The notes below the pieces were generated by a model. That model had not been told where the DNA came from. It saw only the letters and a program-made list of their open reading frames with translations, and searched no databases. A stretch of 64,000 nt of DNA from positions 1,674,001 to 1,738,000 of the forward strand of contig JAFFJZ010000040.1 in assembly GCA_018340375.1 (NCBI GenBank), read 5' to 3'. This document shows, in pieces, positions 3,500 to 63,653 of the stretch. Position 1 is the first letter of the stretch; each line of letters starts with the position of its first letter. Made by a program: the position numbers and the translations under genes. The stretch comes from Gonatopus flavifemur. Lineage: Eukaryota; Arthropoda; Insecta; Hymenoptera; Dryinidae.

Positions 3500-3910
3500 C
3501 ATGATTCTTCCCTACGAAAAATTCACATAAAAAACATGAAAATCTTATCCGTTTACTATGCGTTCTTTTCATCGTAACAATAATGGTAATTTACAATAAA
3601 CACTAACGAAGATGTTCGGAATTACGGATATCTGCAATCAAATTCGTATCAAAACGATAAATTGTGCATAGAATCTAATGAAAGCAATCTCATTCGCACT
3701 CAATGTAAATCGTGAGAATAATTAAGAAGATACAAATGAATTAGAATAAATACGGATAAAAACTGTTTTTGTTAGATTCTGTACGTAATTGATGGTTTCG
3801 ATACGTATTTGATTGCAAATATTCGTAATTCCAAACGTATTTGTTGTAAATTACGATGAAAAGAATGCATAGTGAACGGATAAGATTTTGAAGCGTTATT
3901 TGATGTGGGT
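3500..3910. mobile_element. Fold-back MITE truncating a mariner
   Basis: Arms about 3543-3670 and 3778-3897 are imperfect inverted copies (shared landmarks TTATCCGTT, CTTTTCATCGTAA, TGCAATCAAAT). The mariner reading frame stops resembling mariner exactly where this repeat begins, near 3905. No clear target duplication found. Confidence 0.6.
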
Positions 3911-4695
3911 TTTTTGCAGAGATTCTTGACCGGCTCACCTACATGAGGCCGCGCGTTGTCATGGAATAGTTTTACTGGACGTTTTCCTTTGCCAGAAAAT
4001 GGACGTTTCTTCTCAATTTCTTGATTCACTTGCATCAATTGATGACAATAGCGATCGGCAAAAACTGTTTGACCAGGTTTGAGAAGTTCATAATACAGTA
4101 CGCCTTTCATATCCCACCATATGCACAGCATGACTCTGTTACAATGAACATTACGCTTTCGCGTGGATGTTGTCCCCTCACCGAGGGCAACCCGATGATA
4201 TTTGCGTTTCAGATTATCCAAATTAATCCACTTTTCATCACCGCTCACAATTTTCCACAACAAAGACTTCCTATGTTGCTTGTTGTAAAGACTCACACAA
4301 ATGTTAAGACGACTGTTTTTATTTTCTTGAGTCAAAAAGTGTGGTACCCACTTTGTTCCTTTCCGAATCTTACCCATTGCTTTTAAAAGATATGAAACAG
4401 TTTGTTGAGTTACTCCAAGCTGTTCCGAAAATTGTTTCTCCGTCCGACAAGAGTTTTTATCCAGCAACGCTTGCAGTTCCTGATCATCCACCATTACAGG
4501 AGACCCGGTGCGTCCACGGTCACTAACGTTGAAATCACCCTTTTTGAATCGCTTATACCAATACTCACATGTACTTTCAGATACAATGTTGTCTCCAAGA
4601 ACAGAACATATCGATTCACACGCTTTCCTAACACTTTTTCCTTGATTGAATTCATAGCGAATGCAGTGTCTAATAAATAGCTTATCGGTCTGCAT
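3905..4695 (-). pseudogene. Mariner transposase, 3' truncated
   Basis: Open from ATG at 4695 (minus). It has an N-terminal helix-turn-helix half with SVRKACESICSVLGD and a second HTH with GVTQQTVSYLLKAMGK. Catalytic Asp 1 lies in SGDEKWI and Asp 2 in FHDNARPHV. The expected third Asp block (YSPDxxPSD) is missing because a fold-back repeat replaces the sequence after VKNL. The frame stays open to 3772 but the last ~45 residues are not transposase. Similar to the mauritiana-type mariners (LCIWWDMKGVLYYELL). Inactive by truncation. Confidence 0.85.
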
Positions 4696-4858
4696 GTTTA
4701 ATTCACAGAATTTTTAGGTTGTGTTGATGACTCCTTTACGTTTCGATACTGTAACGTTTAAGCATGCCTTATAGGTTGCTCCGAATTAATGATGAGAGAC
4801 AATTTAATAACGAGAATATTTATTACGAATAAATATCTATTAGAGTAATACGTCGCGA

Positions 4859-5289: not shown

Positions 5290-6218
5290 ATGGAGAACGA
5301 AGCCGGCGAAGAACTCATCATTCAGATAGAAAAACTGAAAAATAGTGAAAATTTCTTGATTTGGAAATTTCAAATACTCATATGGTCTAAATCTCAAGAT
5401 TTATTTGAGATAGTGAACGGAAATAAGAAATTTGCAGCATGTGAAACGGAATTATCGAAAAAGGAATGGTCGAACAAGGATGCTCGCGCGCAGAAGATTA
5501 TCATTACGTCGATTGAAAGACAACCAATGTCTCACTTATTAACATGCAGCACGTCTCATGAAATGTATACCACAATTTGCACAATATATGAGAGAAACAC
5601 CGAACAGAAATGTGAGTTGCTTCAAGATTTTTTAACTACAAATATCAAAAAGATGTAGATATTGCGCCTCAAATTAGTATTCTACAAAATATAGCGTATC
5701 GATTGAAAGAATTGAAAAAAGAAACAGACGATATAATGATAATTTCGAAAATTTTAAGCATCTTACCAGATACGTTTAGACATTTTGCAAGCGCATGGGA
5801 ATCCACAAGTGATGATGAAAAAACTTTAACGCATTTAATCGCAAGATTGATAGCTGAAGAAAACAGATCGAAATCATCTGATGAAAATGAAAACGTAGCT
5901 TTTAAATCTGTACATAGAAGAAATAATTTTCCATCTAAGTTAGGAATGAATAAACCACTTTTTCAACAAAGTAAAATAAAATGCTTCAAATGCAATGGAA
6001 CTGGCCATATAGCAAAATATTGCAACAAAAAATTTACAAATACATCTGACACGAAATGTAAAATTTGCAAGGAAACTAATCATAACGAGGACTGTTTTTT
6101 AGAAGAAATAATTCCAATCAACAAATTCGAGGAGATGAAGAAATCTCCTTTTATGCATCAAATAATAGCAATAATAATAGCACATATGCGTCAAATGTAT
6201 CTAGCGTTTGGTTACTAG
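5290..6218 (+). pseudogene. Copia gag (with zinc knuckle)
   Basis: ATG at 5290 opens a UBN2-type gag (IEKLKNSENFLIWKFQILI, close to the Copia gag start). The frame shifts in an A-run near 5650; the continuation (RLKELKKETDD, then SILPDTFRHFASAWEST) runs to 6218. It carries a CCHC zinc knuckle CFKCNGTGHIAKYC and a second Cys/His cluster CKICKETNHNEDC. A further shift around 6155-6170 separates gag from the protease/pol frame. The packaging function is therefore broken. Confidence 0.88.
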
Positions 6219-9166
6219 ATTCAGGATCTTCGTCACACATGACGCATGAAATAAATCTATTCACGGAAATTAATTGGAAAGATTCGGAGATACAAGTGGC
6301 CAAAAAGACTGAATCCATGACAGCTAAGGGCGTAGGTATCGTAGAATTAGAAAATTGTATTCTAAAAAACGTTTTATATGTTCCAGAGCTCACTACGAAT
6401 TTGATTTCGGTCAAAGCAATTACGGAAAATAATGGTCAAGTATTTTTTTCAAAGAATAAAGCTGAAATACATATAGATGGAGAAATACTGACAGCAGAAT
6501 GTAATGACCAGAGACTTTGGCAAATCGAATTCATTGGAAAATTGCAAGAAACAGTTTGCGTTGCTGAAAACATTGAAAGTGCTCTTGATTGGCATTATAA
6601 GCTTGGACATACGGGACCGACTAGTATGAAAAAATTGATCAAAATAACAGAAAGAATGAAAATAACGGACGCAGAAATTGACACCTCGTTAAATAGCTGT
6701 GAAATATGTATGAAAGCTAAACAAACCAAATTGCCTTTCAACGAAGAGAGAAAGAGAGCCTCAAGACCTCTTGAAATCATTCATACGGACCTGTGTGGAC
6801 CAATAGAACCCAGCACTTGGGATAACAAACAATACTTCTTGAGTTTCCTAGATGATTATACTCATTTCACTATTATTTACCTTCTAAACGCTAAAAATGG
6901 AGTAGCAGCTACAACAAAAGAATATATTAATATGGTTGAAGGCAAATGGAATTTGAAAGTACATAAACTACGGTCAGATAATGGACGTGAATATCTCAAT
7001 GAAACCCTAAAAAAGTGGTGTAAGATTGAAGGTATACTTCTGGATACTACAATTTCGTACACTCCTCAACAAAACGGCCGATTCGGAAGGCTGAATAGGA
7101 CGATCATTGAAAAAACAAGAGCTCTTCTGTTGGGTTCAAATCTCAATAAAAACATGTGGGGAGAAGCAGCACGTACGGCAACGTATATACTGAAAGGGAG
7201 CCCTACAAATACATTGGAAGTAACTACAATAGAGAAATGGACGTCGAAACCACCAGAGCTGTCAAACTTGAGAATATTTGGTTGCACAGTGTATGCCAAG
7301 ACTCTTGGTTACCCGAAGAACTTGGATGACACAAGCAAAAAGTACATTTCCGTAGGATACGCGCCGAATGGTTTCAGACTTTTCGATACGATACGGAAAA
7401 GGATAATAATATCCAGAGATGTCCAATTTGTGACGCACAGTTTTTCTGAGAATGAGGTTAAAACGGATGAAAATAACCTAGACGAAACAGGTGATGAAAA
7501 GGAGGGAGGAAGATCCGCAGGAATTCAAGAAGAAAGTACTAGTGAAGAATATTTCACTGACGGAGTTACAGATGCAGAAGAAACGATGATAGAGAATCAA
7601 GAGGAACAACAACCTAGAAGAGAAAGAAGAGAAATAAAATTACCAAGTAAATATAAAGATTACGTTTTACTCACCTACGAAGAAGCTACGACTGGAGAAG
7701 AAAAATTAGAATGGCAGAAAGCTATTTGAGAGGAGAAAGACTCTTTGAAGAAAAATAATGTATGGAAGTTGGTAGATAAAAATAAAGCTGGAAATAAAAA
7801 GATATTGAGTAGCAGATGGATTTTCAAACAAAAAGACGACGGGAAATACAGGGGAAGATTAGTGATAAAACAATGTCAACAGAAGGAAGGGATCGACTTT
7901 CAAGAAACTTACAGCCCGGTAATAAACATGAGTTCCCTTAGAATGATGCTGGCTTTGGCAGCGAACAGAGGAGATAAGTTCGTCAAATTCGATGTGAAGA
8001 CCGCGTTCTTATATGGAGATTTGAACGAAAGTATATTCATGAAGATTCCGGAGGGATATGAAGAAAACGAAAATAACATTTGTAAACTCCAAAAGGCCAT
8101 GTACGGACTCAAACAAGCCTCACTTAGCTGGAACTAGTGTCTAACGGATCATCTACGACAACAAAATCTAAAACCTACTCAAGTGGAACCATGTGTATAC
8201 GTAAATGCCAAAAAATCTTTAATTTTGGCCATATACGTCGATGATGGGATAATTGTTGGGCGAAATTCCGATGAAATTGAAAAAATAAGACATGGTTTGA
8301 GTACACTTTTTCAAATAACTGTTTGTGCTAATGTTGATGTTCTTTTAGGTTTTCAATTCTCACATAATGAACACGATTTAGAGATGAAACAATCCAATTA
8401 CGCAAATAGGATCCTTCAAAGGTTTGGGATGGAAAATGCGAAGGCGACAACCACACCAATCATGCCAGTGGAAGGAAGTTCCAATGGTGGAAATGAAACA
8501 TATCCATACAGGGAATGTGGGGGAAGCATTCTGTATCTGGCGAATAAAACTCGTCCAGACATCTCTTATGCCGTGGGCTATACTAGTAGATTTTTGGATA
8601 CGTATAAAACTTACGATGTTGTTAATTTGAAGAGAATTTTGAGATATATCAAAGGAACTTCGGATCTAGGTATAAAGTATGAAAAATCGAAAAACGAAAG
8701 TTCAAATCATTTTATTTGTTATTCAGATTCTGACTATGCAGGCGACACTGTATCAAGAAAAAGCACAACTGGCTACGTAATTTTTTATATGGGTGGTCCC
8801 ATCAGTTGGTGCTCTAAAAGACAACCTATTGTTGCACTGTCTAGTACAGAATCGGAATTTATAGCCGCAGCAGATTGTTGTGAAGAAATGATATATTTGA
8901 AAAATTTATTAGAAGCTCTTACTTTTGAAAAAATCAAAATGACTTTGAATATAGATAATCAAAGCACGATACAAATAATTAAAAACGGGATAAGTAATAA
9001 AAGAAGCGAGCATATAGATGTGAGGTCCCATTTTTCACATGAAAAGTACAAAGAAGGTTTTTTTGATTTGAAATATTGTCCTACTGATGAACAGTTAGCG
9101 AATATTTTGACTAAGCCGCTAAATACTTACAAGTTCAATAAGTTGAGAGATTCTTTATTATGTTGA
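6171..9166 (+). pseudogene. Copia pol: protease, integrase, RT, RNase H
   Basis: One frame read from about 6171. The protease site is VWLLDSGSSSHM. The integrase zinc motif is H-x4-H (HYKLGH) with CEICMKAK. Integrase D residues lie in HTDLCGP and RSDNGREY. At the position of the catalytic Glu (normally NGxAERLNRT) the sequence reads NGRFGRLNRT, so Glu is replaced by Gly. The RT carries FVKFDVKTAFLYGDL and YVDD. RNase H carries ALSSTESEFIAAAD. In-frame stops occur at 7727-7729 (TGA) and 8135-8137 (TAG). Dead. Confidence 0.93.
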
Positions 9167-18207: not shown

Positions 18208-19337
18208 TAGTACCTACAGGACAGCTAACTTCTTGGCAAAATTAGCCAATCTTTCGCTGATGAATCTGAAAATATTGCTACGGGAGCTAAAAAAATGACT
18301 GTCCTTCTCAAGGTTGATTGGTTTTTGCTATGCGGAGTGAATAAAATCTTCAACATTCAATGAAATATTCTCATACAAACCAATAGCTCATATCAAGTTC
18401 TATTAATTCCAATAAAACACATCTGTTCCATGGGTTAATCCTCGATTCGATCCCATAGATAACAGGTTTCGATTAGTTCTAATTCATTTTGAATCGCTAC
18501 ACTGTTAGAAAAATCTGCTTGACACTTCATAAGCATCACTTGGAGTCTGTTGCCTGGACTTTTCATCCTCAGTGCCGATGTTCGAAAGCCACGATGTTTT
18601 TTTATTTTTAAAAATATTTACTTTATATCTACATTTTGTCAAATCCAATAAATATTATATATAAAGACAAACATGTTTGCAAACATCACCCATTCCTGTT
18701 CCGCGAGCTGAAAACTCACAGCAATTATTTCATCGATTCTAATGATGTACATTTCGTATGAGACAAGTTTTGGTCTAAACGTTTATGATGCTTTTCTGAA
18801 AAATTGATTATAACGTCTACACTGCTGAACTTTTTTAAATTTGGCACGCAGTACATTTTTACTTTGCTGTCACGGCTTTCCATCACCAAAGCGATTGCAA
18901 CAAACGTTCTATATCAATAACATATATTACTCTAGCAATGAAACATTTGGGCTTTAGGCAAATACAACATATTTCAATTTTGATGGTCGCAACAACAAGG
19001 TTTTTCATAGTCATCAAAGTGACACCAAATTCTTTTCTATTAACTTTTGATATAATTATGTTACCTAGAAGTTTCAAGATTACACTTTTATCACATAAGC
19101 ATTTTCGAAAATGATATGTTGAAGACATCGTCATCAAGCGTTTCACCTCGCGTACGCTTGCAGCAGAATATTTCCGTCCTTTACACGGTGAGTAGTGTTT
19201 CGGTCTCGTCTTGTTGAGGTTTTCGTCGAGATTTTCCGTATCCTCAAGATTCTTGATCTTACAAGTATTGTCTCCGTCTCGGAGAATGATTGTTTGTCTC
19301 GTATTGTACACATAAAATTCCAATTCAGCGATAGACA
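18208..19337. other. No gene seen
   Basis: A minus-strand open frame of 161 codons overlaps 18883-19368 but runs into a MITE and has no recognisable features. I treat the region as intronic filler. Confidence 0.4.
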
Positions 19338-19707
19338 CACGGAAAGAAAAGATTTGCTGACGCAGCAAATCGAGGTATTATATATAGAATAGCAAAATTT
19401 TTTGCCGACCTAGCTAAAAATTTGCTATAACAGCAATCGTGTTAGCTACGACAGCAATTTTTTAGCTGTGGCAGCAAAAAATGTTTGCTCCGCCAGCAAA
19501 TTTTCAGTATTATATACAGAATAGCAAACAAATTTTGCTGGAATAGCAAACATTTTTTGCTGCCACAGCTAAAAATTCGCTGTCGCAGCTAACAAGATTG
19601 CTGGAACAGCAAATAGTTTGCTGTCACCGCAAAAAATTTGCTGCTCTGGCAAAAGGAACCCAGCAAAAGTAGATTTCGCTGCCACAGCGAATTCATTTTT
19701 CTCCGTG
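19338..19707. mobile_element. MITE made of TTGCT/AGCAA words, second copy
   Basis: Ends CACGGAAAGAAAAG / TTTTTCTCCGTG with CA on both sides. The interior is an array of TTTGCTG-N-CAGCAAA hairpins plus AGCTAA/TTAGCT variants. The phrase GTATTATATA(T/C)AGAATAGCA occurs twice. Confidence 0.8.
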
Positions 19708-20455
19708 CACTACAGAAATTGCTAATCCTCACAGTGGTCCATAAAGATACTACGTGGCATTGCACTTTGTAATACTTTAAATCACATAATCAGTGAATTA
19801 TATAGCTTATTCTACTGAAAACATATTAGAAACATGTGCTGCTATATTGAATAATGAACTCTACTATTTTCTAAAAGGGCACTTTTCTGCGTGTAGCTCT
19901 ATTTTATATTTCGATGGTCATAATGGAGCTAAGGTAACTACAAAATGGGGCCAGACTCAAATTCAGCTACATCTTTCTCTCAGTGCATGAACACACGCAC
20001 TTGTTTTCTCAATATTTCGCATGAGTTCTTTGCTGATGGGTAAACTGTATGCAATGACTGATCTCGGTGATTTTTTTGAATTATTTTCGATCTTTCTAAT
20101 CCTCATTGGGGACAGCTGTAGCGTGGAATAGTGACAAATCTAATGATTCTGAAAATTCATGTGGAATAGTGGATTTTCACCTATTTTCATGAACTTTAGA
20201 AACTTCGCGCGACCGGAATAGCATCAATACTTTTGATTGAGTTTTTTTCACATTCCCGGTCTTCTCGAATTGCAACTTTTCCGCGGTATAGCAACTTGCA
20301 AACAAAGTGAATTTGAATTTACCATCACTGTGAGAAATAACAATAAGACGATCAATCTTCGATATTTGCACTCCGAATTGTCGGTAAACTCACTACGAAT
20401 ATTCTTCAATCATCCTCTTTTGCTCTGAATTGATAGTCGTTTTTCTCAATATTAA
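19708..20455. other. No gene seen
   Basis: AT-rich; short open frames only, none with recognisable motifs. Confidence 0.4.
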
Positions 20456-33530: not shown

Positions 33531-34638
33531 GTGATCGAATTGCAGGAACTATATCATAATCTATGTCATGTTATAGTGAAATTTCTATAGGGGAGATGCC
33601 GGTAATTACTATTGGATTTTATTTGCTAGTTAGACATATTCACATCTCTCCACCTGAATTGACCAACCATAAATCCAACATTCTCATGACTGTAGATTTC
33701 AGCGGCCTGCTCCTGAGTCATGTGCACTCTCGTTGAATGATCACTGACCGGAGCATAATTATTATAAAAGCATATTTAATGTTCCGTGTTCATATATTTT
33801 GGTGAATAAAAATAGCTGATGATTTTACCGTGATGGAGGGAATTCCACATAGAAACCCAAATCCCAGTTGGAAAAATGATAATCAATGTAATTGAAATCC
33901 GATAATTATCATTTTTATATTGTTGTTTTTTTTATTTTTCTTTCTTATTCAAGTTGAGTTGAATATTTCTCGATTATGGTTAATCAAGTCGATGAGGCGA
34001 TTGATTGTGGTGATGGTCGATATTTTACGATGTAGATACTTTTTATAGGAATTTTATCGAGTTTATGTTGGATTTTATGAAACATTAATAAAAACTATAT
34101 TTAATTTAATACCAAATATCGATATCGTGAAATATCCCGCATCATTAACTGAGTGCAGTGAATATTTATACATATATCACTCAATTTTGCTGGGTACTTG
34201 TTATTAAACTACATCAAAGAAATTATCTTGATAGAACAGTCCTGTATTATCCTTCGCATATCAGGAAGTCGTGAGGAGGAATCGGATGAAAAAAGAAATT
34301 ACTTCGAAATAACAAAGGAAGAACAGAACAATTTTCGAGCCTGATATACAACATTTAACAGATTTGAATGTTTCTTGGTCGCCTCCGCATTGTTTTCAAG
34401 TTGTTTGCTCATATTATTCTGACGATTCTCATCTATAAAATAAAAAAACAACTTTGCACATTTACGGGAACATTTCGTTCGCGTAAAAACAAAATTTTGT
34501 CTCGATTTTGAAAAGTGGGATAATTGGTACGATAGAATTGATAAAAACTCCCAATTCCTCCATGGTGGGCTTGCACCAGATTAGATTTCACTCATATGGT
34601 CATCAAATATTCACTGATCTCACTATTTATTTTCAACG
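33531..34638. other. No gene seen
   Basis: AT-rich DNA up to the CAACG target duplication (34634-34638) of the Transib element. A CGATATCG-type MITE end lies near 34100-34145. Confidence 0.5.
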
Positions 34639-34714
34639 CACAGTGGGGCCAAATGCCAAAAAGCTGGACAAAATTATAAGGGGCTCTCAAATTCGCTTGC
34701 GACTTCGTACTCGG

Positions 34715-35265
34715 GAAGTTTATGGGGTCACTGATTACGAATCCGTTGTCAGAATTTCAAAATTCAAAATGGCGAATCCAATATGGCGGACGAAAATTGA
34801 AAAAATTATCAGATTCTTTTCAAATTGGGTACCCAGGGATTTTTGGGGTCGCTGATTACAAATCCGTTGTCTGCATTTCGAAATTCAAAATGGCGGATCC
34901 AATATGGTGAAATAAAATCGAGAAGATCATCGGATTTTCTTCAAACTCGGCATCCAGGAGTTTTTGGGGTCACCAATTACGAATCCGTTGTCAAAATTTT
35001 TAAATTCAGAATGGCGGATCCAATATGGTGGACAAAAATTAAGAAAATCATCGCATTTTCTTCAAACTCGGTACTCAGGGGTTTCTGTGGTCGCTGATTA
35101 CGAATCCACGGTCTGAAATTCAAAATTCAAAATAACGGATCCAATATAGCGGACGAAAATTGTAAAAATCATCGGATTCCCTTCAAACTCGGTACCCAGG
35201 GGTTTTCGGGATCGCTGATCACGAATCCGTTGTCAGAATTCCGAAATTCAGGATGGCGGATGCCA
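34715..35265. repeat. Transib left subterminal tandem repeats
   Basis: About five diverged units of ~120 bp carrying GATTACGAATCCGTTGTC, AATGGCGGATCCAATATGG and TTCAAACTCGGTACCCAGG. Each repeats the same order. Inverted counterparts lie at 38215-38640. Confidence 0.88.
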
Positions 35266-35507
35266 AAAATCAAAACTTCATTCATAACTTAATATTAAAC
35301 AAGAACTAAACGGCCCATTTTGTTGTTCCTATTATGATCATTATTATTATTATTTCCAACATTGAATCATTATTAATATAATTATCGAATGATATTAACA
35401 CACCAAATGTGTTAAATCGAAAGATATATACATTCACAAAATATACAATAATATAAAAAACTGAAATCGTAATGGTTTTTACTTTTGCCACACTTTTTTT
35501 ACTCAGA

Positions 35508-37512
35508 TTAGTCTTCTTCTCCACTCTCAGAGGAAGATAATGGGAAAGTTACGTTGTCTTTATCAAGTATATCCGGAGTTTTGATCAGGCTTAACACGTC
35601 TCTAGGGAGAAACTTTAGTTTTTTCTTGGGCAACTGTCTTTTACTCGATCACATTGGATCAGAACTCAAAAGGAACCATTTAAAAATGTCTTCATTCGTT
35701 TTTTCTCTACTGCATTTCCTGGAGTGATGCTCTCGGTACCTTTGGAGATGAATGTTGTTAAGATATTTGAATATAATTATGTATTCATCGACACCGTTAA
35801 AGCTTTTGATCTCAACATGACAAGCAAAATCAAGGAAAAACAAAAAGCAGCTGCACTTTGGGGTCATCAGTATCAAGTTTTGAATAAATCCTCTAATTCA
35901 TAAGTTTACTTGATTCTCAAAATTGTTTTCTAGTCTATGAATTCATGTTTCCAGAGGATGAACAATGTGGCTTATTAATAAAAAAAAGTATATGAATATT
36001 CATAATTCCCCGAATTCCTTACCAGAACAAAACAATCTTCGCGAACATATATTCTCGTGGTGACCATAAATATATAGTTTGCCTAGTAGTCAAAAACGTT
36101 TTGTGCAATGTATCAAACTGATTGCAGTACTTGAGAAGTCAAATTTTTCCCTTCAAAGTGTCGAGTCCACTGTGACAAATACAGACTATTATTAAGTGAT
36201 ATACATCATTTTCACCTTTTAAAATCTTTGTTACGAGCCTCTTGTGCTCCCTCAGTCAATTGGCCTATAGGTAGAAGAGCAGATGCAATGATTTCAGGTC
36301 CGTGGATCAAAAACTTGTGCATCGTAGGTGACATTGGGTACCACGGATATTTTGTCGCGTAATAGCGTGCCGTGTCTAAAGCGTAACTCCGAAACTTTTC
36401 AACGTCTATTTCATGCCCACTTGAAACGGTAGCTAATACTACATGAAGTCGTTGTATTAGGTTGACATCCACCCCTGTGATTTCGGCAGAAACTTCGGGT
36501 TGTGCGAAAAATCGCCTAGCGGTATTCCCATCATTTGAGTTCCCAAACCCTGGCTTAGGAACATCGACAATGAGGCCACATTTTTCTGTAAAACTTTTCT
36601 GTACAACCTTTTTTCGTTCTTCCACCAAAGCTTTATCTTGTTTTCGTGCTTGCCACTTCTGAATAGGTAGCTTATAAGACAAATGCAGGAGGCCCTCAAA
36701 AAATCGTATCCAGCCGTGTAGACAAGACAAACCAAACTGGAGGTTTTCGGTTTTGACCGGCCTGGATACTATATCATCAATTTTGTTGAATTCCTTAGAT
36801 GTTGCACCACCTATATAGCACTTCTGGGTATAGGTTGTCTCAGTTATGGCATTGCATACCTTCCCGTCCACCATAGAAAAAATCATCTCATGTTTCACTG
36901 AAACATGTTTTTCATCAGTTCTGAAAGAAGTAGCCCTCAGATTTTCTATTTCATTATCAACCCGTAGCTTCTCTGCAACCGAAACTTCAGTTGATTCTTT
37001 CACAAACTCTATTTTGATTGGCCTACAAAATCTGGTTGATGATGGCCTTGGATTCTGCCAAATTATTTTTGAATTGCAGTGTAGGCGGAGAGGCACAAGT
37101 GAAGTAATGAACACAGCGGAATCACTAGCTTCCGAACTTTGATATGCTTGTTTGTATGAGGAGTGGCCAGAGCTCCCATCAAACCCCCATTTGGAAATAA
37201 GTACCAGGTTTTGTAACTCTTCAGATAAAGTTGACAAAACCGAATTCTGTAGCTTTAAAATACGTGTAGCTGTGTGATCAAGAAGTGCTTGTAGTTGCAC
37301 AACAGCGCAGGTTTCTGAAATCATCTTTGGAATCTACAAACGTTGTAGAATTCGATAAAATTCGCTACAGAAACCCCATGTGTTTCTAAAAATTTTCCTA
37401 ATTTTCTTGGGTTGGATTCAACCCTCTTAAGCTAATTTTTTTTGCAGTCAACTGTTCAAATTAAACTACTAAGAAAATATAGGTTGTTGGAACACTCACC
37501 TATGGCAGCGGA
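35508..37512 (-). pseudogene. Transib/RAG1-like transposase, three exons
   Basis: Exon 1 ends at 37500 (donor GTGAGT; coding MDSAAI from a possible ATG at 37516-37514, upstream part not found). Exon 2 is 37314-36216, followed by intron 36215-35740 (GTGAAA...AAAG). Exon 3 starts at 35739 and reads YREHHSRKCSREKTNEDIF to a TGA at 35651-35649. Landmarks that align with RAG1 are WGFDGSSGHSSYKQ (first Asp), FSMVDGKVC (second Asp), MHKFLIHGPEI (zinc His pair) and EGAQEARNKDFKRYR (catalytic Glu). The zinc CxxC reads CYIG, so one Cys is lost. After the TGA the same frame continues for about 46 codons to TAA at 35508, suggesting a nonsense mutation in the tail. It belongs to the element bounded by CACAGTG ends. 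The splice joins are my inference from frame and consensus. Confidence 0.85.
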
Positions 37513-37589
37513 ATCCATCTCATTTGGAATTGTATGTTAACATTGAATGATTTTAAAAAACGAAAAATATTCACCAAGCTCCAAACTTG

Positions 37590-38020
37590 CACGCGGAAAA
37601 AAGTTTACGGTAACGATTACTAGCAAGAGTGAGAATTCGGTGACAGCTATTGCACAATTGTGATAAGCACCATTTGAAATCAGACCGATTACAACCAACT
37701 ATTTACGTTGCCATGGAAACGATAGGTTAACATAAGAACGATCACCAAATCGCGAGTCATGATTCAGTTCACGAAAAGAAAAGAGATATCAATACTTGAA
37801 TGACATTTATAAACATTTAGGAAAATGACGGTTACTTTAGGGAAAAAGAGCATCGCTGAAGAATGTTAGCAGTGAAGTTACCAAAAATTCGTAGTAATAA
37901 TACTAAATGTTGGTAGTTTTATTGTCATTTCCCATAGTGAATTCATCAACTCATAGTAAATTCACTACGAATATTCTCCAGCAATACTGTTTTTCTCTCA
38001 ATGGTCCATCATCTTCCTGA
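37590..38020. repeat. Possible MITE inside the Transib element
   Basis: Starts CACGCGGAAAAAAGTTTACG and ends ...CTGTTTTTCTCTCAATG. Repeats of TTACTANN/GTAGT words (TAGTAATAATACTA) occur. Ends match the CACGGA/CACTGA type only loosely. Confidence 0.35.
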
Positions 38021-38214
38021 ATTTCAATGATTTCTGGCTTTTGTGTACCCTAAGCCCGCGATGAGAAGAACAACGAATGGTAATCAATCTCATACAGTTT
38101 TCCTCGTGCGGCAAATGTACACTGGAAACGAAACACATACTAACGTTGAGATAAAATTCAAAGCGAATCTACTGAATTCTGAGTTTTGTGTCCACCATAT
38201 TAGATACGCTATCT

Positions 38215-38640
38215 TTGATTCTTGGAATTTGACAACCGATTCGTAATCAATGACCCCACAAAACCCTGGATACCGAGTTTGAAGGAAATCTGATGATTTT
38301 TTCAATTTTTCTCTGCCAAACTGGATCCGCCATTCTGAATTCCGGAATTCAGACACCGGATTCGGAATCAGCGACCTTAAAAACCTCAGGGTACCGAGTT
38401 TGAAGGCAATCCGATGATTTTTTCAATTTTCATCCGCCATATTGGATCCGCCATTCTGAATTCTGAAATTCAAACAACGGATTCGTAATCAGCGACCTCA
38501 GAAACCCCTGGGTAACGAATTTGAAGAGAATCCGATGATTTCTTTCCATTTTCGTCCGCCATATTGGATCCGCCATTCTGAATTCCGAAATGAAGACAAC
38601 GGATTCATAATCAGCGACCCCACAAACTTCTGCATATCAA
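38215..38640. repeat. Transib right subterminal tandem repeats
   Basis: Three to four ~120-bp units, the reverse complement of those at 34715-35265 (ATTGGATCCGCCATTCTGAA, GATTCGTAATCAGCGACC). They make the element ends inverted over several hundred bp. Confidence 0.88.
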
Positions 38641-39242
38641 GTTTCAGACGGATCTAAGGACTCCTCATCACTCCGTCTAATTTTTTGTGATTTCCTGCAC
38701 AAAAACATGGCGGAATTGCTTAGGGGCAGACATGGGCAGCCGTTTTTTTTTCTGATGTTTAGGTAAGAGTCCCATCTACCACCTCCAATAAGTTAAACGA
38801 CGTAATTTTGCGTAATTCTCTACTATTCCTTCAAAAACCAAACACATTTTCTCATTTATAGATATAGAAATTACATCCAATCATTGCTCTGTCAGTATTT
38901 TCCACTCATCAAATTGATATTCTCTTAATTTTTAGTGTATTCTACATAGTTTCAGTAATAGACTCCAATTTGAAAAAGTTAAATCGGTTCATTTTTCGAG
39001 ACACAGCGTCTATTTGAACATGCTTGTTATTTTACTGTCTTTCAATCACGCGGATTATACTTCAAGGAGGGTATTTTGCAACTGGTACACAAGGGCAGGG
39101 GGAGGGGATCAGATCTTCTTATATCAGAATTCCAATACTTGGGACATCACCTTACTTATCCCAAGGGTCAAATATCCCCAACTACAAACTTCATTTTTGG
39201 GGTTTTGGCCAGCTTTTTGGCATTTGGCCCCACTGTGCAACG

Positions 39243-46136: not shown

Positions 46137-48167
46137 CAGGGTGGGGCATTTAAAGTGTCGCGGGCGTTTTTTCCAAAAATAAAGTAAGATACGAGAAAAT
46201 TTTTCGGACAAAAGTTGTAGGGTACCGAGGGGGACATCCGATGGTGGCCTTGGCTTTGACCTCAAATCTCATCTTCAAGGGCATTCTGAGATCAACTCTT
46301 GTTTTTTAAATAGCATCTCATATTTTTTACTGCAGATTTGGATTCTAGATCAAAAACCAAGAAACTTTTGTCCGAATCATTTTCCTGAAATCCGCAAAAA
46401 TGGCGCTCTAATCGATATTGTTCCATTTTGAATCTGACATTCGAATAACTCGAAAACGAAGGGTCTTGCAAAAGAATGTTTCGTACAAAAGTTGTCAATA
46501 CACAACACATTTCAATCGTCTACATTACCACCATTCAGAGCTCACGCAATGTAAACAAACGACGGGGTTCAGTGAAAATTCACGATTTTGAAAGTCAGTT
46601 TGTCAGTTACATTTGATTATTACTTGGTTTATGACAAATTAAAAATCATGGATATCCGATACACGGTTTCTGAAAAGATCAATATGATCTACATTTACGG
46701 TGAAGTGCATAAGAACCCCAGACAAGCATATGACTTGTATGCAGAACGATTTCCTGAAAGAACAACGCCATCCATTAGGTATTTTCAACGCATTACAAAA
46801 TTATGCTCAGAAACGGGAAGTGTTACAAGGGGAAAACGACATCGAATGAGAACTGTTAGCGGAGAAAATGCGGAAGTTAATGTACTAGCTGCAGTAGCCA
46901 ATAATCCACACGTGAGCTCTCGTGAAATTGAACTCCATTCGGGAATTTCTCGAAGAAGTGTTCTTCGAATTCTGAAACGTCACAAATTCCATCCGTATCA
47001 CATTTGTTTGCATCAAGACCTTCACGGTGATGATTTCGAAAATCGTGTACAGTTTTGTCGATGGAGTCTAGCGCAAATGCACAATAACAACTTCATCAAC
47101 ATATTATTTTCTGATGAGTCGACGTTCACCAATCATGGTCAAGTAAATCGACATAATATGCATTACTGGGCGACAGAAAATCCAAGATGGTTACGTCAAG
47201 TAGAGCATCAAAGACAATGGGCTGTGAATGTTTGGTGTGGTATTTTTCGATCTCGAGTAATTGGACCGTACTTCATTGCAGATACGCTAAATGGAGAGAA
47301 GTACAGACATTTCTTAGATCAAGTACTTCCAACATTACTTGAAGACATACCTATTCAGGAACGATTGAATATGTGGTATCAACACGATGGTTGTCCATCC
47401 CATTATGCAGTCACAGCTCGAGAAATATTGGACAGAGATTATCCTGGACGATGGATAGGACGTCGTGGACCAGTTCATTGGCCTGCCCGTTCTCCGGATC
47501 TTACTTCTCCAGATTTTTTTTATGGGGATACATAAAAGATACAGTTTATCAACAAGCACCGATTACACCTGAGAATATGCGTCAACGAATCATCAATGCA
47601 TGCGCGAGCATCAATGAAGATATTTTAGCACGAGTTCAGCAATCTTTTGTCAAACGTTTTGAAATGTGTATTGAAGTCGAAGGCCATCATTTTGAGCATC
47701 TACTGCATTAAAATTATCCAAGTGATGTAGACGATTGAAATGTGTTGTGTTTTGTCTGTTATACCCCATCACCTCCGTTTCAGTTCAAGGGGTCCCCCTT
47801 GGAATCAGACAACTTTTGTCCGAAACATTCTCCTCCAAGACCCTTCGTTTTCGAGTTATTCTAATGTCAGATTCAGTATGGAACAATATCGATTAGAGCG
47901 CCATCTTTGCGGATTTCAGGAAAATGGTTCAGACAAAAGTTTCTTGGTTTTTGACCTAGAATCCAAATCTGCAGTAAAAAATATGAGATGCTATTTAAAA
48001 AACAAGAGTTGATCTCAGAATGCCCTTGAAGATGAGATTTGAGGTCAAAGCCAAGGCCACCATCGGATGTCCCCCTCGATACCCTACAATTTTTGTCCGA
48101 AAAATTTTCTCGTATCTCATTTTATTTTTGGAAAAAACGCCCGCGACACTTTGAATGCCCCACCCTG
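46137..48167 (+). mobile_element. Second DD41D Tc1/mariner element, long TIRs
   Basis: 2031 bp; CAGGGTGGGGCATTTAAAGT / ACTTTGAATGCCCCACCCTG ends with TA on both sides. Inverted repeats run about 390 bp on the left and 440 bp on the right (to GTAGACGATTGAAATGTG), the right one carrying ~50 extra bp. Architecture matches the element at 9474-11860. Confidence 0.9.
46648..47711 (+). pseudogene. DD41D transposase with one frameshift
   Basis: The ATG at 46648 (MDIRYTVSEKINMIYIYGE) is chosen because the longer open frame starts on a non-ATG codon. It includes a helix-turn-helix (NNPHVSSREIELHSGISRRS), NILFSDESTF (Asp 1), YQHDGCPSHY (Asp 2) and PARSPDLTSPDFF (Asp 3). The 41-residue Asp 2-Asp 3 spacing is as in the 10.3-kb copy. 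A T-run at about 47513-47521 has one extra base, throwing the frame; the correct C-terminus (LWGYIKDTVYQQAPITPENM) lies in the next frame to 47711. No other lesion seen, so this was recently active or nearly intact. Confidence 0.88.
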
Positions 48168-49741: not shown

Positions 49742-50311
49742 TCAAAAGAGACACAGATTCTTCTTTTTTCCGATGCGACGAATCACCAGATTGTTGTATG
49801 AGTCCGGACGTATTATGTTCAATAAATCAGTTACAGTGGTAGTATCAGAGGATGTATCAGATGAAGTTTCTTCAACGTCGAAGAGTAAAATGTTGAAAGA
49901 TCTACGATTCATTTCCTCCAACAAGTCTTCTTCATAAGAGGAATCAAAAGATGAAGGAGACCATGATTCCAAGGCAGATAATCTTGTGGAAAAATCAGCA
50001 ACACTGTCCGTATTTGAAGAAAGCTTCGATTCGAAACAACTAAGTTGAGTGGAGATTTTCGAAATCGCAGTATCAAAAATAATTTGAATTTCAGATAAGA
50101 GATCTGATTGGCTGCACGTATTGATGTCTTGGATTAAATCAACACCCACATCCGATGACGGTAGTTGTACCGGGTGTTTACAATTCAACAGTGAACCATT
50201 ACGCCATGGATGGCCACTTCTCGCTGGGCAGGATGACCCAGGATGTGATGACACATTATACGACCCACATGTCATAGGCTTGTCAACAATTTTACTGCCA
50301 CCTTTACACAC
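49742..50311 (-). pseudogene. Non-LTR retrotransposon ORF1-like fragment
   Basis: Minus-strand frame with a Ser-rich N-terminal part, then a heptad-like stretch (IFDTAISKISTQLSCFESKL, ADFSTRLSALES) and MNRRSFNILLFDVEE followed by VIRRIGKKK. This coiled coil plus RNA-recognition-like order resembles ORF1 proteins of some insect non-LTR elements. No reverse transcriptase follows. Family call weak. Confidence 0.4.
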
Positions 50312-50407
50312 TTTTTAGGCATGATGGGTGATATAATATCTAAATTGATAGTGTACAAGGAAAACCAATCCGAGTGAGAACCACTGTATAGATCACTCAC
50401 TCACGTA

Positions 50408-54560: not shown

Positions 54561-55849
54561 CGAGGGTGGATTGATAAGTTTCCGGCCTGACCAAGAGATG
54601 GCGCCACTAGGCCTACCTTGAGGTGGCGTTCTATAGTACCATCCTTAGATAGCTTGTAGCTATAGTTTCAGTCCGATCGCCATGTTAGTTTAGTTTTGAG
54701 AGCACGCTGACCAAGACGCCTCTGTGTTTTTCGTAAAAATGGAAAAGCTGGAAAATCGTGCTGTCATCAAATACTTTTATTTGAAGGGGTTAACGCCGAA
54801 GGAAATTAAAGAAGAGATGGACTCAACACTGGGGACATCCTCCCCATCATATTCAACCGTTAAGCAGTGGGTTTCCGAGTTTAAAAAGGGTCGTGTGAGC
54901 ACCTCTGATGAGCCTCGCTCAGGACGCCCCATTGAGGTCACAACTCCAGATATGATCGAAAAATCCATCAAATAGTGCTGAAAGATCGCAGATTAAAAGT
55001 TCGTGAGATAGCTGAGACCTGTAAGATGTCATATGAACGTGTACAAAATATTTTGCACCAACATTTGTATATGGAAAAGCTCTGTGCAAGATGGGTGCCG
55101 CGTTTGCTAACAGTCGACCAAAAATTGATTCGAAAGAACATTTCTACCGCCAATTTGGCGTTGTATAAGCGTAATCCAAACGAATTTTTGCGTCGATTCG
55201 TAACCGTTGACGAAACTTGGGTCCACCACTACACTCCTGAAACCAAAGAACAGTCTAAACAGTGGATTGGACCAGGGAACCAACTCCAAAGAAGGCAAAA
55301 CAATTTTTCGGCGAACAAGGTTATGGCTACTGTTTTTTGGGATGCAAGAGGTATTATATACATTGATTACCTTGAAAAGGGTAAAACTATCACTGGTCAA
55401 TACTACGCAGACTTATTGCAACGTTTGAGCCACGAAGTGAAAATTAAACGACCTCATCTGGCGAAGAAAAAAATCTTGTTTCATCACGATAACGCACCAG
55501 CGCACACGTCAATCGTTACGATGGCTAAAATCAACGATCTGAAGTTTGAATTAATGCCGCACCCTCCCTACTCTCCAGACCTAGCCCCGAGTGACTATTA
55601 TCTGTTTCCTAACCTCAAGAAATGGCTTGGCGGTAAGAGATTTGCGGACAATGAAGAAGTAATCGAAGCTGTAAATGGGTATTTTGAGGAGCTTGACGAA
55701 TCAGTCTATAGAGATGGCATCACTAGACTAGAACACCGCTATGAAAAATGTATCAGCCTTGGAGGAGATTATGTTGAGAAATAAAAAAAAAAAATTCTTA
55801 AAAACGTTGTTTTTCTTGGTCAGGCCGGAAACTTATCAATCCACCCTCG
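54561..55849 (+). mobile_element. Mariner element, nearly intact
   Basis: 1289 bp, CGAGGGTGGATTGATAAGTT / AACTTATCAATCCACCCTCG ends (about 30-bp TIR, GGCCTGACCAAGA conserved), TA on both sides. An uninterrupted related target sequence at 63654-63924 confirms the TA duplication. Confidence 0.93.
54739..55784 (+). pseudogene. Mariner transposase, single frameshift
   Basis: The ATG at 54739 ([20 protein letters not shown]) is chosen over an upstream non-ATG extension. N-terminal HTH domains are present ([20 protein letters not shown]). A run of five A near 54962 appears one base short, giving an early stop at 54973-54975. The rest resumes in the next frame (LKDRRLKVREIAETCKMSYE). Catalytic residues are FVTVDETWVHH (Asp 1), FHHDNAPAHTS (Asp 2) and YSPDLAPSDYYLF (Asp 3), with D34D spacing. 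Length about 345 aa as usual. Only this one lesion is seen. Confidence 0.93.
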
Positions 55850-59220: not shown

Positions 59221-60253
59221 CTGTATTTTTTTTTTCAACACAAACGAGGAAGCCATGTGCCAATTGGCAGAGTTTTTTTTTTGTTATGAGATGAAAATTG
59301 GGTATCAGTTACAGCACTATCCACCAAACAATCTATATTGTCAATCGAATACACTTGGATATCTGTCTGAGTTGACATGTCTTTCATCTCTACTGGCCAT
59401 ATATTTTTCCAACACTTGTAAATTGTAGTGGAATTTACCTTATCCCATGCGGCAGCGATCCGAAGAATGACCTCATATAGATCTAATGTTTTTAAGAACT
59501 CAATCAAGTGAACACTTTTACTTTGAGCTTCGATAATTGCATTGACAAAATTTTTCTCGTAGTATAATTTGATTGATTGAATTATTCCTTGATCCATGGG
59601 CTGGATGAGAGACGTAACGTTTGGAGGAAAAAAATGTATTTCAATATCGTTTATCTTGATGCATTTATGTGCTCTACAATTATCCACTAAAAGTACAGCA
59701 GCCTTAGGAAAATTTTTGCCAGCGAGGAAAGCTTCAACTGCAGGAACAAAGAGGTCTTTGAACCATTCTTCAAATATTTCTAAATTCATCCATGCATTAT
59801 TTTGGCTGCGATACCATACGGGTGAATGATTTTTATTGACGTTTCGTAGGCAATGCGGATTTTTGGATTCACCAATCAAAATCAATGGCAATTTACAGGG
59901 CTCATCAGAATTACAACATGACGCTATAGTAATGCGCTCTAACTGTTTCTTTGGACCCGATACTTGTGTGTAATCCTTTGAAATCAACGTTCTTTTCCGG
60001 GTACTCTTATAGAGCAATCCAAATTCATCCATGTTGAAAATCTGCGCCTTTTCAAGCCTTTTCAAATGTACTAGTTCACTAGATTTGTCCTTATACGAAT
60101 TAGCAGCCACCTCATCAGCAGACAGTTTTTCGTCTGTTTTTGAAAAGGAAATACATTTGATAAGATTCAATGAGCTTTCATACCTGGCAATTTAATTCAC
60201 AAGGTTTCAAATTTCAATTGGATATTTTCCATTACATTTTGATTTCAACACAT

Positions 60254-61068: not shown

Positions 61069-61867
61069 AAGGTAAATCGTAAGTCCACATTCATTTATTC
61101 ATCGAAAAATATACTGTTCAATAATATTGTACGTATAAGAATAAAAATGAACTAAAAAAACAAAAAAATCATTCTGCTCACCAGTTATTTTTAAATTTTT
61201 AATGTTCATTCGTTTTTTCCATTTTTCTATCCAGCCATGACGTCGTGAGTAGCTTTGAACTCTGTTGAACCACCAATCCTAGTGTTGATGATTAAAGCTT
61301 GCTAACACAACATTGGCCCAATAACTGGGAAACCTTTTAGTCGGCAATCACATAACCAATTAAATAGTTCAGTATCAAGTTCATCCGTTGTAGGTATTTT
61401 CTTCTTATTTTTTGTACGATTCTTCTCTGCAGCATTCTTTATAGTATCACTCTTATGTTTCCATTTACGGATGAGACAACTATTTAAATTATATTTTTCA
61501 CATATTTCTTGAGAGGTTAGGTTTTTTGATTCTTCTGAAATCTTTTGTTTATCCTCAAATGTGTATCGATTGCGTTTTTTGGCTGCAGGTTCTTTGACTG
61601 AACCACTGCTTCCTCTTTCATTTTTCCCATCACTGGCATCTGATTGAATTGTAGCACGCACGCGTTTACACTTTTTAATGGTGTCCGACATTATTATCGT
61701 GATAACGGAAACTATACATGTAAATTTGTATGTAACACAACAATTGTCTACTCGTGCCAGCTGAGAGTTAAAACAATTGACGCGCGGCCACTCAGGTGGC
61801 TAGCGCAAACGTTCTTATTGGGAGGTCGCAACCTAAAATGCGAGAGAGAAAAAAGAATACGGTGATT

Positions 61868-62427
61868 GAATGCCAATGTAGGCTTGGTGGGGGAACCCTG
61901 ATTCGCGAAAAAACTCCTCCCCTTTGGTGAGGAATTCGAATCTGACGTCGAAAAACGGATCCAACATGGCGGACGCGAACTCAGTCGTTTGGGCATTTAT
62001 GGACGGATTCTTATGATACATGGGTTTTAGGGGTTTTTGAGGGTGTTGAATTCGAATCTGGGGTCAAATCTCGAATTCAAGACAACGGATCCAAGATGGC
62101 GGACGTGAATTTAGTCAAACTCGCATTTGTGGACAGATTGATATGAAACATGGATCCTAGGAGTTTTGAAGGGTGAGGAATTCGAATCTGACGTCGACAA
62201 ACAAATTCCAGATGGCGCATCCAACATGGCGGACGTCAATCTAGTTAATTTTGCAGTCATGTACAGATTTATATGAAACATGGGTTCTAGGGGTTTTCGA
62301 GGGTGCTGAATTCGAATATGGGGTCAAATCCCGAATTCATGATAACGGACCCAAGATGACGGACGTGAATTTAGTCATTCTGGCTCTAATTAACAAAATT
62401 ATATTGTTATATGTAACACGGGTTCTA
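61868..62427. repeat. ~128-bp tandem repeat, four units
   Basis: Units carry CAACATGGCGGACGTCAAT-type blocks at about 61968, 62095, 62228 and 62352, plus GAAACATGGGTTCTAGGGGT. Similar in wording to the Transib subterminal repeats (ATGGCGGATCC). One unit is interrupted by the MITE at 62428-62892. Confidence 0.85.
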
Positions 62428-62892
62428 CACTGAGAGAAATTCTTCATTAAAAATTACTGGTTTTCCCATTAGACGGGGGATATACTTGACATACAGTTTG
62501 ATATACTTGGCATGAGATCAGAAATCAATGAGACAAAACAGTAATTTCTCATACTACGAAGTTTGAAAATTAAAACCAATGGGAATTCATGTTGAAAAAC
62601 AGCAATTTCTTATGACCCAATGTAGAAAACAAGAACTCTCAATTGGTGAGATTGATATAAATTGGAAACCATAACATTTTCAAGAATGTTCCGTGGCTTC
62701 GGGGAAAGAAGCAAGGATCGTGATCACAAACAATCATGTTCGACGCTGGTAACGATAAAAGTGTTTTTTCTCGGTTATTATAACGCTAGGAAAAATTACT
62801 GGTATTTCCCATCAGTTTGTAATCACATGTCAAGTATATCCCTCGCTTACTGACAAAAATCAGTAATTTTTAATGATACATTTCTCTCAGTG
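62428..62892. mobile_element. CACTGAGAGAAA MITE with proved TA target
   Basis: CACTGAGAGAAATTCTTCAT / ATGATACATTTCTCTCAGTG ends, TA on both sides. Neighbouring tandem units show the uninterrupted GGTTCTAGGGGTTTTC, confirming TA duplication. Words CAGTAATTTTTA, GGGATATACTTGA. Confidence 0.92.
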
Positions 62893-63653
62893 TAGGGATT
62901 TTCAAGGGTGCTGAATCAAAATCTGGGCTCAAATGTTGAAAGAAAATAATAATCTCGATTTTCCCGTGTAAGCTTCACTGCATCCGAAGACTCTTCAACA
63001 GCTGGTTGACGTTATGACAATCCGTCATGACCACGCCCTGACAATCCCGTGTTTCACCTGTCCAAAACTTGTTCTGGGGGCGCCGGCTGTGCCATCGTTA
63101 ACTCTGGCAGGGAATTTTCAATACATCCAATGAACATTTCTCACGTAAGCGTATGAAATTGCGTACGAGTTCGATGGAGTATCTGCGCATTGATTAATTC
63201 TTACGTTCATTCCAAATTTGCCGAAATGCCATCCAGCGCTCCTAGCGGATAGAGGAAATTTAATGGATATAAATCCAGTGGAAAATCATTGAAGTGTCAA
63301 GGGTCTGGTCATGACATAGTGAGGATCCAAAAGTGGAGGAAGTAGCTATTGAAACAAATGAAGCCTGAAAATATTCCGATTCATTCCTGAATTACGGCTA
63401 AATAACTCTTCCCTGCTGAAAACGTCTCATAAATTCTGATATTTAACTTTTATGAGATTTTGATGTGTATTTGTTTATGAGGTTATACTTATTTAAGAAA
63501 ATGAATGAGAATCATTATAAGAATGTATCAGAATTTATAAGGATCTCATAAGAGCTGTGAAATCTCATAATAAATGATAAAATAAACAACAATCTATCAG
63601 TTTTTGATGTGTATTTGTCCAAGAACTTATGAGCATTTTATGGCGATGGCTTG
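62893..63653. other. No gene; CTCATAA word cluster
   Basis: 63430-63640 is rich in CTCATAA/TTATGAG and GATGTGTATTTGT (twice). No terminal repeat resolved. Nothing coding. Confidence 0.4.

Follow-up and report, generated by a model that had tools for sequence, protein, structure and literature searches.

Transib transposons are kin of RAG1, the antibody-gene recombinase. The family described here bears on whether the nonamer of the recombination signal sequence (RSS) and its protein reader were inherited from Transib or arose afterwards. According to the accessible part of PMC8355894, the terminal inverted repeats (TIRs) of Transib begin with a CAC-type heptamer and carry nonamer-like blocks at spacers of 20-22 bp. 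The accessible part of PMC8289069 gives the V(D)J heptamer consensus, describes a GC bias in Transib target-site duplications (TSDs), and reports little or no nonamer likeness in the TIRs of HzTransib. RSS-like ends by themselves are not new, as such likeness is already published. The Transib chain solved so far is without the part that corresponds to the RAG1 nonamer-binding domain (NBD). The element described here occupies positions 34639-39237 (4,599 bp) of a 64,000-nucleotide stretch of Gonatopus flavifemur DNA (contig JAFFJZ010000040.1, positions 1,674,001 to 1,738,000), hereafter the window. It is very probably a non-autonomous copy with an internal deletion, belonging to a young Transib family of about 580 copies. 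This family provides a test bed with hundreds of insertions, exact CACAGTG ends and a predicted NBD-like domain; some copies have kept the main exon open, and mobile derivatives have lost the NBD. With several hundred copies, the RSS likeness of the ends can be tested on recently moved elements.

Borders of the element

Each end of the element carries a 35-bp TIR, at 34639-34673 on the forward strand and 39203-39237 on the reverse strand, beginning with the heptamer CACAGTG (34639-34645, and 39231-39237 on the opposite strand). The two TIRs are identical at 34 of 35 positions, the mismatch being position 30, and the element is flanked by the 5-bp duplication CAACG at 34634-34638 and 39238-39242. 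A sequence-only reading had proposed the heptamers, the TIR with one mismatch and the duplication, all at these exact coordinates, and each of them held. When the window was scanned for pairs of CACNNTG ends that lie up to 12 kb apart and are flanked by an exact 5-bp TSD, this element was the only pair to reach 10 of 16 TIR matches or more; the best of 20 Markov sequences reached 8 of 16. In the genome (636,049,841 bases, 402 contigs), a search with the 25-bp TIR that allowed up to 3 mismatches gave 579 forward and 577 reverse matches, and the reversed control gave 0 and 0. These results indicate that the ends of the element are not due to chance. If every element has two ends, the matches correspond to about 578 elements.

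The first 101 bp of the element were found at 100% identity in at least 40 genome copies (40 scored of 1,026 candidates), and for a 401-bp segment from within the right end the best 40 of 641 candidates were scored. Forty copies were retrieved at length, 20 by the identical 101 bp and 20 by exact TIR letters at both ends. Both ends were present in 24 of these, with exact TSDs in 18 and a length of 5,657-5,668 bp in nine. Transib TSDs have the form CGNCG. The TSDs of the present family are CGNCG-like and GC-biased, since 22 of them, including those of the window and three sister copies, had C in 19, G in 18, any base, C in 18 and G in 17 at successive positions.

The claim that the borders are intact was assessed at the outer ends of right regions chosen by internal sequence and not by the TIR: of the 40 that were scored, 32 were read, leaving aside the window and seven more. 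The 32 share one common border with differing flanks; CACAGTG is exact in 29 and carries one substitution in three. One right end (L068) has an extra G after CACAGTG. Copies running past CACAGTG were looked for among the family copies and none was found. In one of the 32 right ends (L070, G000:C370:1151907-1152027), the end meets that of another element as CACTGTG-CGACG-CACAGTG, possibly representing two elements with one common duplication. Over the 2.4-kb gene region, 33 copies and the window diverge from the majority by 0.29-2.0%, the window by 0.73%. By these sequence comparisons, the elements belong to one Transib family, which is young and has roughly 580 copies. TIR, repeat and protein scans of a viral contig set and a protein scan of a further set of genome contigs revealed no relative.

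Transposase gene and class assignment

The transposase gene lies on the reverse strand. Exon 1 (36216-37324) encodes the Transib catalytic core without its N-terminus. A predicted intron of 476 nt with GT..AG ends (35740-36215), across which the proteins of relatives run, leads to a predicted exon 2 (35649-35739), with splice sites placed from the sequence only. Exon 2 ends at a premature TGA (35649-35651) directly after SSDPM, beyond which the frame is open for 46 more codons. The open reading frame (ORF, 36215-37324, reverse strand) matched HzTransib at E 1.5e-98 over 369 of 370 residues and an amphioxus RAG1-like protein at E 0.058. A 23-sequence profile built from the ORF and 22 relatives reached RAG1 chains (1e-9 to 2e-7) as well as the amphioxus protein (7e-14). 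A Pfam scan of the ORF returned no family at E 1. The HzTransib catalytic residues D126, D225 and E436, as given in the accessible part of PMC6941560, were transferred by alignment and correspond to D49, D153 and E362, all present in the ORF. The second zinc cysteine, which is C in 120 of 120 database relatives, is G172 in the window ORF, so that the catalytic DDE residues are retained and the complete transposase with its zinc site is not.

The earlier assignment to Transib is borne out by these matches, and a grouping of the gene outside Transib was looked for and not found. The reading of the gene as a RAG1-like neighbor of intact borders has to be amended, as the gene is broken here by the N-terminal deletion, the exon-2 stop and the lost zinc cysteine. 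With a Transib-type transposase, a CAC-type heptamer TIR and a GC-biased 5-bp TSD, the window copy is assigned by homology and by its termini to the Transib superfamily, as a broken member. The heptamer and the kinship with RAG1 would also be explained by a domesticated RAG1-like gene or a RAG-like (RAG1L-RAG2L) transposon, but this is extremely improbable: the E-value of the HzTransib match is about 96 orders of magnitude better than that of the RAG1-like protein, and the family comprises hundreds of copies, with TSDs and nearly neutral change.

Internal deletion and probable movement in trans

An N-terminal profile of 64 relatives matched the window element only over its last 44 positions. 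Compared with L049, a family copy of 5,662 bp, the window copy has 696 bp deleted (L049 3049-3744), and 365 bp are absent on the left, equal by count to three 121-bp repeat units (5 vs 8). Alignment to L049 places the deletion junction at 37317-37319, and the lost segment includes a domain with a predicted fold like the RAG1 NBD as well as the DNA-binding regions that follow it. L049 spans the whole protein, yet has one stop per exon. Of the 33 copies that cover the gene block, 25 are free of stops over a 572-codon stretch of exon 1 (two of these, L048 and L040, have insertions relative to L049 that were skipped in translation), and in three family copies exon 1 is open for 616 codons. Exon 2 is open over 72 codons in 34 of 38 other copies with the anchor, which is absent in two copies; the remaining four have stops, none at the place of the window TGA. 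Among 33 family copies, the zinc cysteine is C in 29 by text pattern, L049 reads CYMC, two were unmatched, and L044 has G like the window.

A 33-bp sequence across the deletion junction was found at four genome sites, and its control at none. The three other junction copies share one base unlike the window, and each carries a single substitution among the 29 TIR letters at one of its ends, which is the same in C5 and C88. The TSDs of the four copies are CAACG (window), TGTCG, CGACG and CTACG, and their flanks are mutually unlike over 40 bases per side. One deletion junction at four sites with four different TSDs suggests that the window copy and its sisters moved in trans, and we know of no other ready source of four different TSDs. 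Segmental duplication would equally leave one deletion common to four copies, but with four TSDs and unlike flanks it has a negligible probability.

The proposed mechanism is as follows. The longer members (about 5.66 kb) would encode a two-exon DDE transposase with an N-terminal NBD-like domain. This transposase would bind the 35-bp TIR beginning with CACAGTG and excise the element, and reinsertion would produce a 5-bp duplication of the CGNCG type. The chemistry is probably cut-and-paste, by analogy with HzTransib, and the heptamer probably serves as the cleavage signal. The window copy and its three sisters, which have lost their own N-terminus and kept their ends, were presumably mobilized by transposase made from other copies.

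Several observations weigh against this account. Exact TSDs are absent in 6 of the 24 two-ended elements. The singleton coding changes (193 nonsynonymous, 64 synonymous, 7 stop) and the shared ones (45, 22 and 0), against an expectation of 67.5, 29.7 and 2.7%, look neutral and suggest that the sampled copies are decaying. Since the copies were picked by identity to the window end or TIR, their open state may be unrepresentative of the family. The three sister copies were compared at their ends and junction alone, and the splice sites are predictions. The window ORF departs from relatives at 2 of 66 near-invariant columns, G172 included, ranking 19th of 121 proteins, so the core alone is no worse than that of many relatives. 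An intact, self-sufficient copy, in line with its borders, TSD and catalytic triad, is nevertheless highly implausible: it is contradicted by the absent N-terminus, and the zinc cysteine is lost and the exon-2 stop is unlike all 38 other anchored copies, although four of these have other stops.

Ends and recombination signal sequences

The heptamer of the element is identical to the V(D)J RSS consensus. Each heptamer is followed, after a spacer of 22 bp, by an A-rich block: ACAAAATTA on the left (34668-34676, forward strand), which agrees with the nonamer ACAAAAACC at 6 of 9 positions, and CCAAAACCC on the right (39200-39208, reverse strand), which agrees at 7 of 9. Window stretches at spacers of 21-24 bp gave at least 6 of 9 matches in 6.4% and at least 7 of 9 in 1.3% of cases. 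The nonamer of an RSS stands at spacer 12 or 23; the likeness is seen here instead at spacer 22, at a chance rate of 1-6%. At a spacer of 10 bp, both ends also show a 7 of 9 match. In favor of the likeness, the agreement falls at C2 and A3-A6, which include positions contacted by RAG1 according to the accessible part of PMC6941560. The 12/23 asymmetry was not found, as the spacers are 22 and 22.

Between the two ends, all 22 spacer positions agree, as do 5 of 9 block positions. The expectation that heptamer and A-rich block would be conserved more than the spacer therefore failed between the ends. Across the 32 right ends, substitutions numbered 8 of 224 in the heptamer, 4 of 704 in the spacer, 1 of 288 in the block and 6 of 768 beyond it; five of the eight in the heptamer reflect the register slip of L068, leaving 3 of 217. 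Numbers this small do not allow the parts to be ranked, nor do they show the heptamer as the best conserved. The two ends can be told apart in 25 elements: the left has A at position 30, where the right has C (T in L048), and TTA at positions 36-38 (L047 differs at 36), where the right has CCC. The heptamer count in this set is uninformative because 21 of the 25 elements are the window copy or were picked by the exact 25-bp TIR. From the sequence-only description of the ends as RSS-like, the exact heptamer and the 22-bp spacer stand and the nonamer likeness proves weak. The RSS likeness is thus real for the heptamer, suggestive for the A-rich block and absent for the 12/23 rule.

The NBD-like domain predicted in other family copies also speaks for a nonamer likeness. 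Full-length members carry a GRP motif and predicted NBD helices ahead of the DDBD and PreRNase H regions, as in RAG1. In 60 of 120 relatives, the core motif is preceded by at least 170 residues, and a GR motif followed by a basic box is present in 43 of the 60. A bipartite end, in which heptamer and A-rich block are read through the NBD as by RAG1 across a free 22-bp spacer, is nevertheless doubtful. The spacer is identical between the ends and the block is not, the match at spacer 10 is equal, and the chance rate of 1-6% applies per end to ends that are not independent. The counterpart of RAG1 R393 is L in the family protein. The NBD-matching RAG1 segment scored 1.1 bits (i-E 940) in the whole-protein profile, and the segment used in the targeted NBD comparison was picked because of that same profile alignment. 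Foldseek gave no match at E 0.001 or below, and the weak or absent nonamer likeness of HzTransib in PMC8289069, as far as its accessible part goes, points the same way. Copies without the NBD are no test of this bipartite reading, because their transposase would have come in trans.

A broader proposal is more speculative and rather unlikely. It holds that the heptamer and, at a distance of 22 bp, a CAAAA block are both read by an NBD-bearing Transib through RAG1-type contacts, with the counterparts of R391 and R402 on the A-tract and C2. The 121-bp arrays described below would, as has been proposed for the Galileo repeats, offer the transposase extra sites, and mobile derivatives lacking the NBD would be passengers or repressors. 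If such two-part contacts are real, nonamer reading would predate the RAG2 partnership and the 12/23 rule.

Subterminal arrays and surroundings

The element contains two arrays of 121-bp repeats. The left array (34718-35266, forward strand) has 4.5 units by TRF and 5 by unit scan, and the right array (38176-38661, reverse strand) is inverted relative to it. In 23 of 25 elements the left array begins 79 bp inside the element, and in most the right one lies 610 bp from its end; the unit count is 3-8 on the left (8 in 17 of 25) and 3-4 on the right. Similarity between units of the window element, counting partial units at the array ends, is 44-87%, compared with 92-98% between aligned family copies, suggesting that the arrays predate the expansion of the family and change by unit loss or gain. 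Subterminal tandem arrays look unusual for Transib; in the result listings of a literature search on Transib with subterminal or tandem repeats, no such case turned up. It may be guessed, by analogy, that the arrays provide extra transposase sites.

A second array in the window (61954-62377) has a period of 130 bp and aligns collinearly with the 121-bp repeat, at a local score of 76 against 32 for the best of 100 shuffles. It adjoins a gene with a weak helix-turn-helix match (61305-61799) and DDE_1 (59238-60191), which we take to be pogo/Tigger-like; the end-pair scan of the window found no Transib-type pair near it. The repeat family may be common to the two superfamilies. An element resembling a miniature inverted-repeat transposable element (MITE), with 40-bp inverted ends (CTACACTGAGAGAAAT), lies inside this array at 62425-62895, and the array seems to resume at 62893. 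ATGGCGG motifs occur in units of all three arrays, twice in some. They resemble the ProtoRAG TR5 element GCCATCTTG and presumably also YY1/Pho sites. Within the Transib element, part of 37812-38002 is 71-81% like stretches at 20325-20453 and is possibly a nested MITE.

The window has ten further long ORFs, most of which match transposase or retrotransposon Pfam families (236-751, 3775-4713, 6086-7726, 46576-47532, 54936-55781 and 59238-60191), presumably of the mariner, copia and piggyBac classes. Pfam gave no family for two of the ten (18886-19377 and 49745-50314).

Comparison with known systems

HzTransib of Helicoverpa zea (PDB 6pqn and kin) has the same core over 369 residues, with the catalytic residues in register. 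It also has a heptamer-like TIR and a 5-bp TSD according to the accessible parts of PMC8289069 and PMC7204232, the comparison covering these features. The solved HzTransib chain aligns only from model residue 175 and thus has no counterpart of the NBD-like part, and the 121-bp arrays are a feature of the present family. The insect Transib proteins of Rhagoletis (P0006), Eupeodes (P0011) and Temnothorax (P0015), compared as proteins only, are 55-64% identical in the core, and no basic box was seen in that of Temnothorax. The V(D)J RSS with RAG1, and ProtoRAG, are alike in the heptamer, the NBD-like predicted fold and distant core homology, but differ in their 12/23 asymmetry, against 22/22 here, and in a stronger nonamer. 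A RAG2 partner was not seen in the ORF lists, in which no RAG2-specific search was made. Galileo of Drosophila has inverted subterminal tandem repeats of variable copy number, proposed as secondary transposase sites in the accessible part of PMC3573991. Its transposase belongs to the P superfamily, unlike that of the present Transib.

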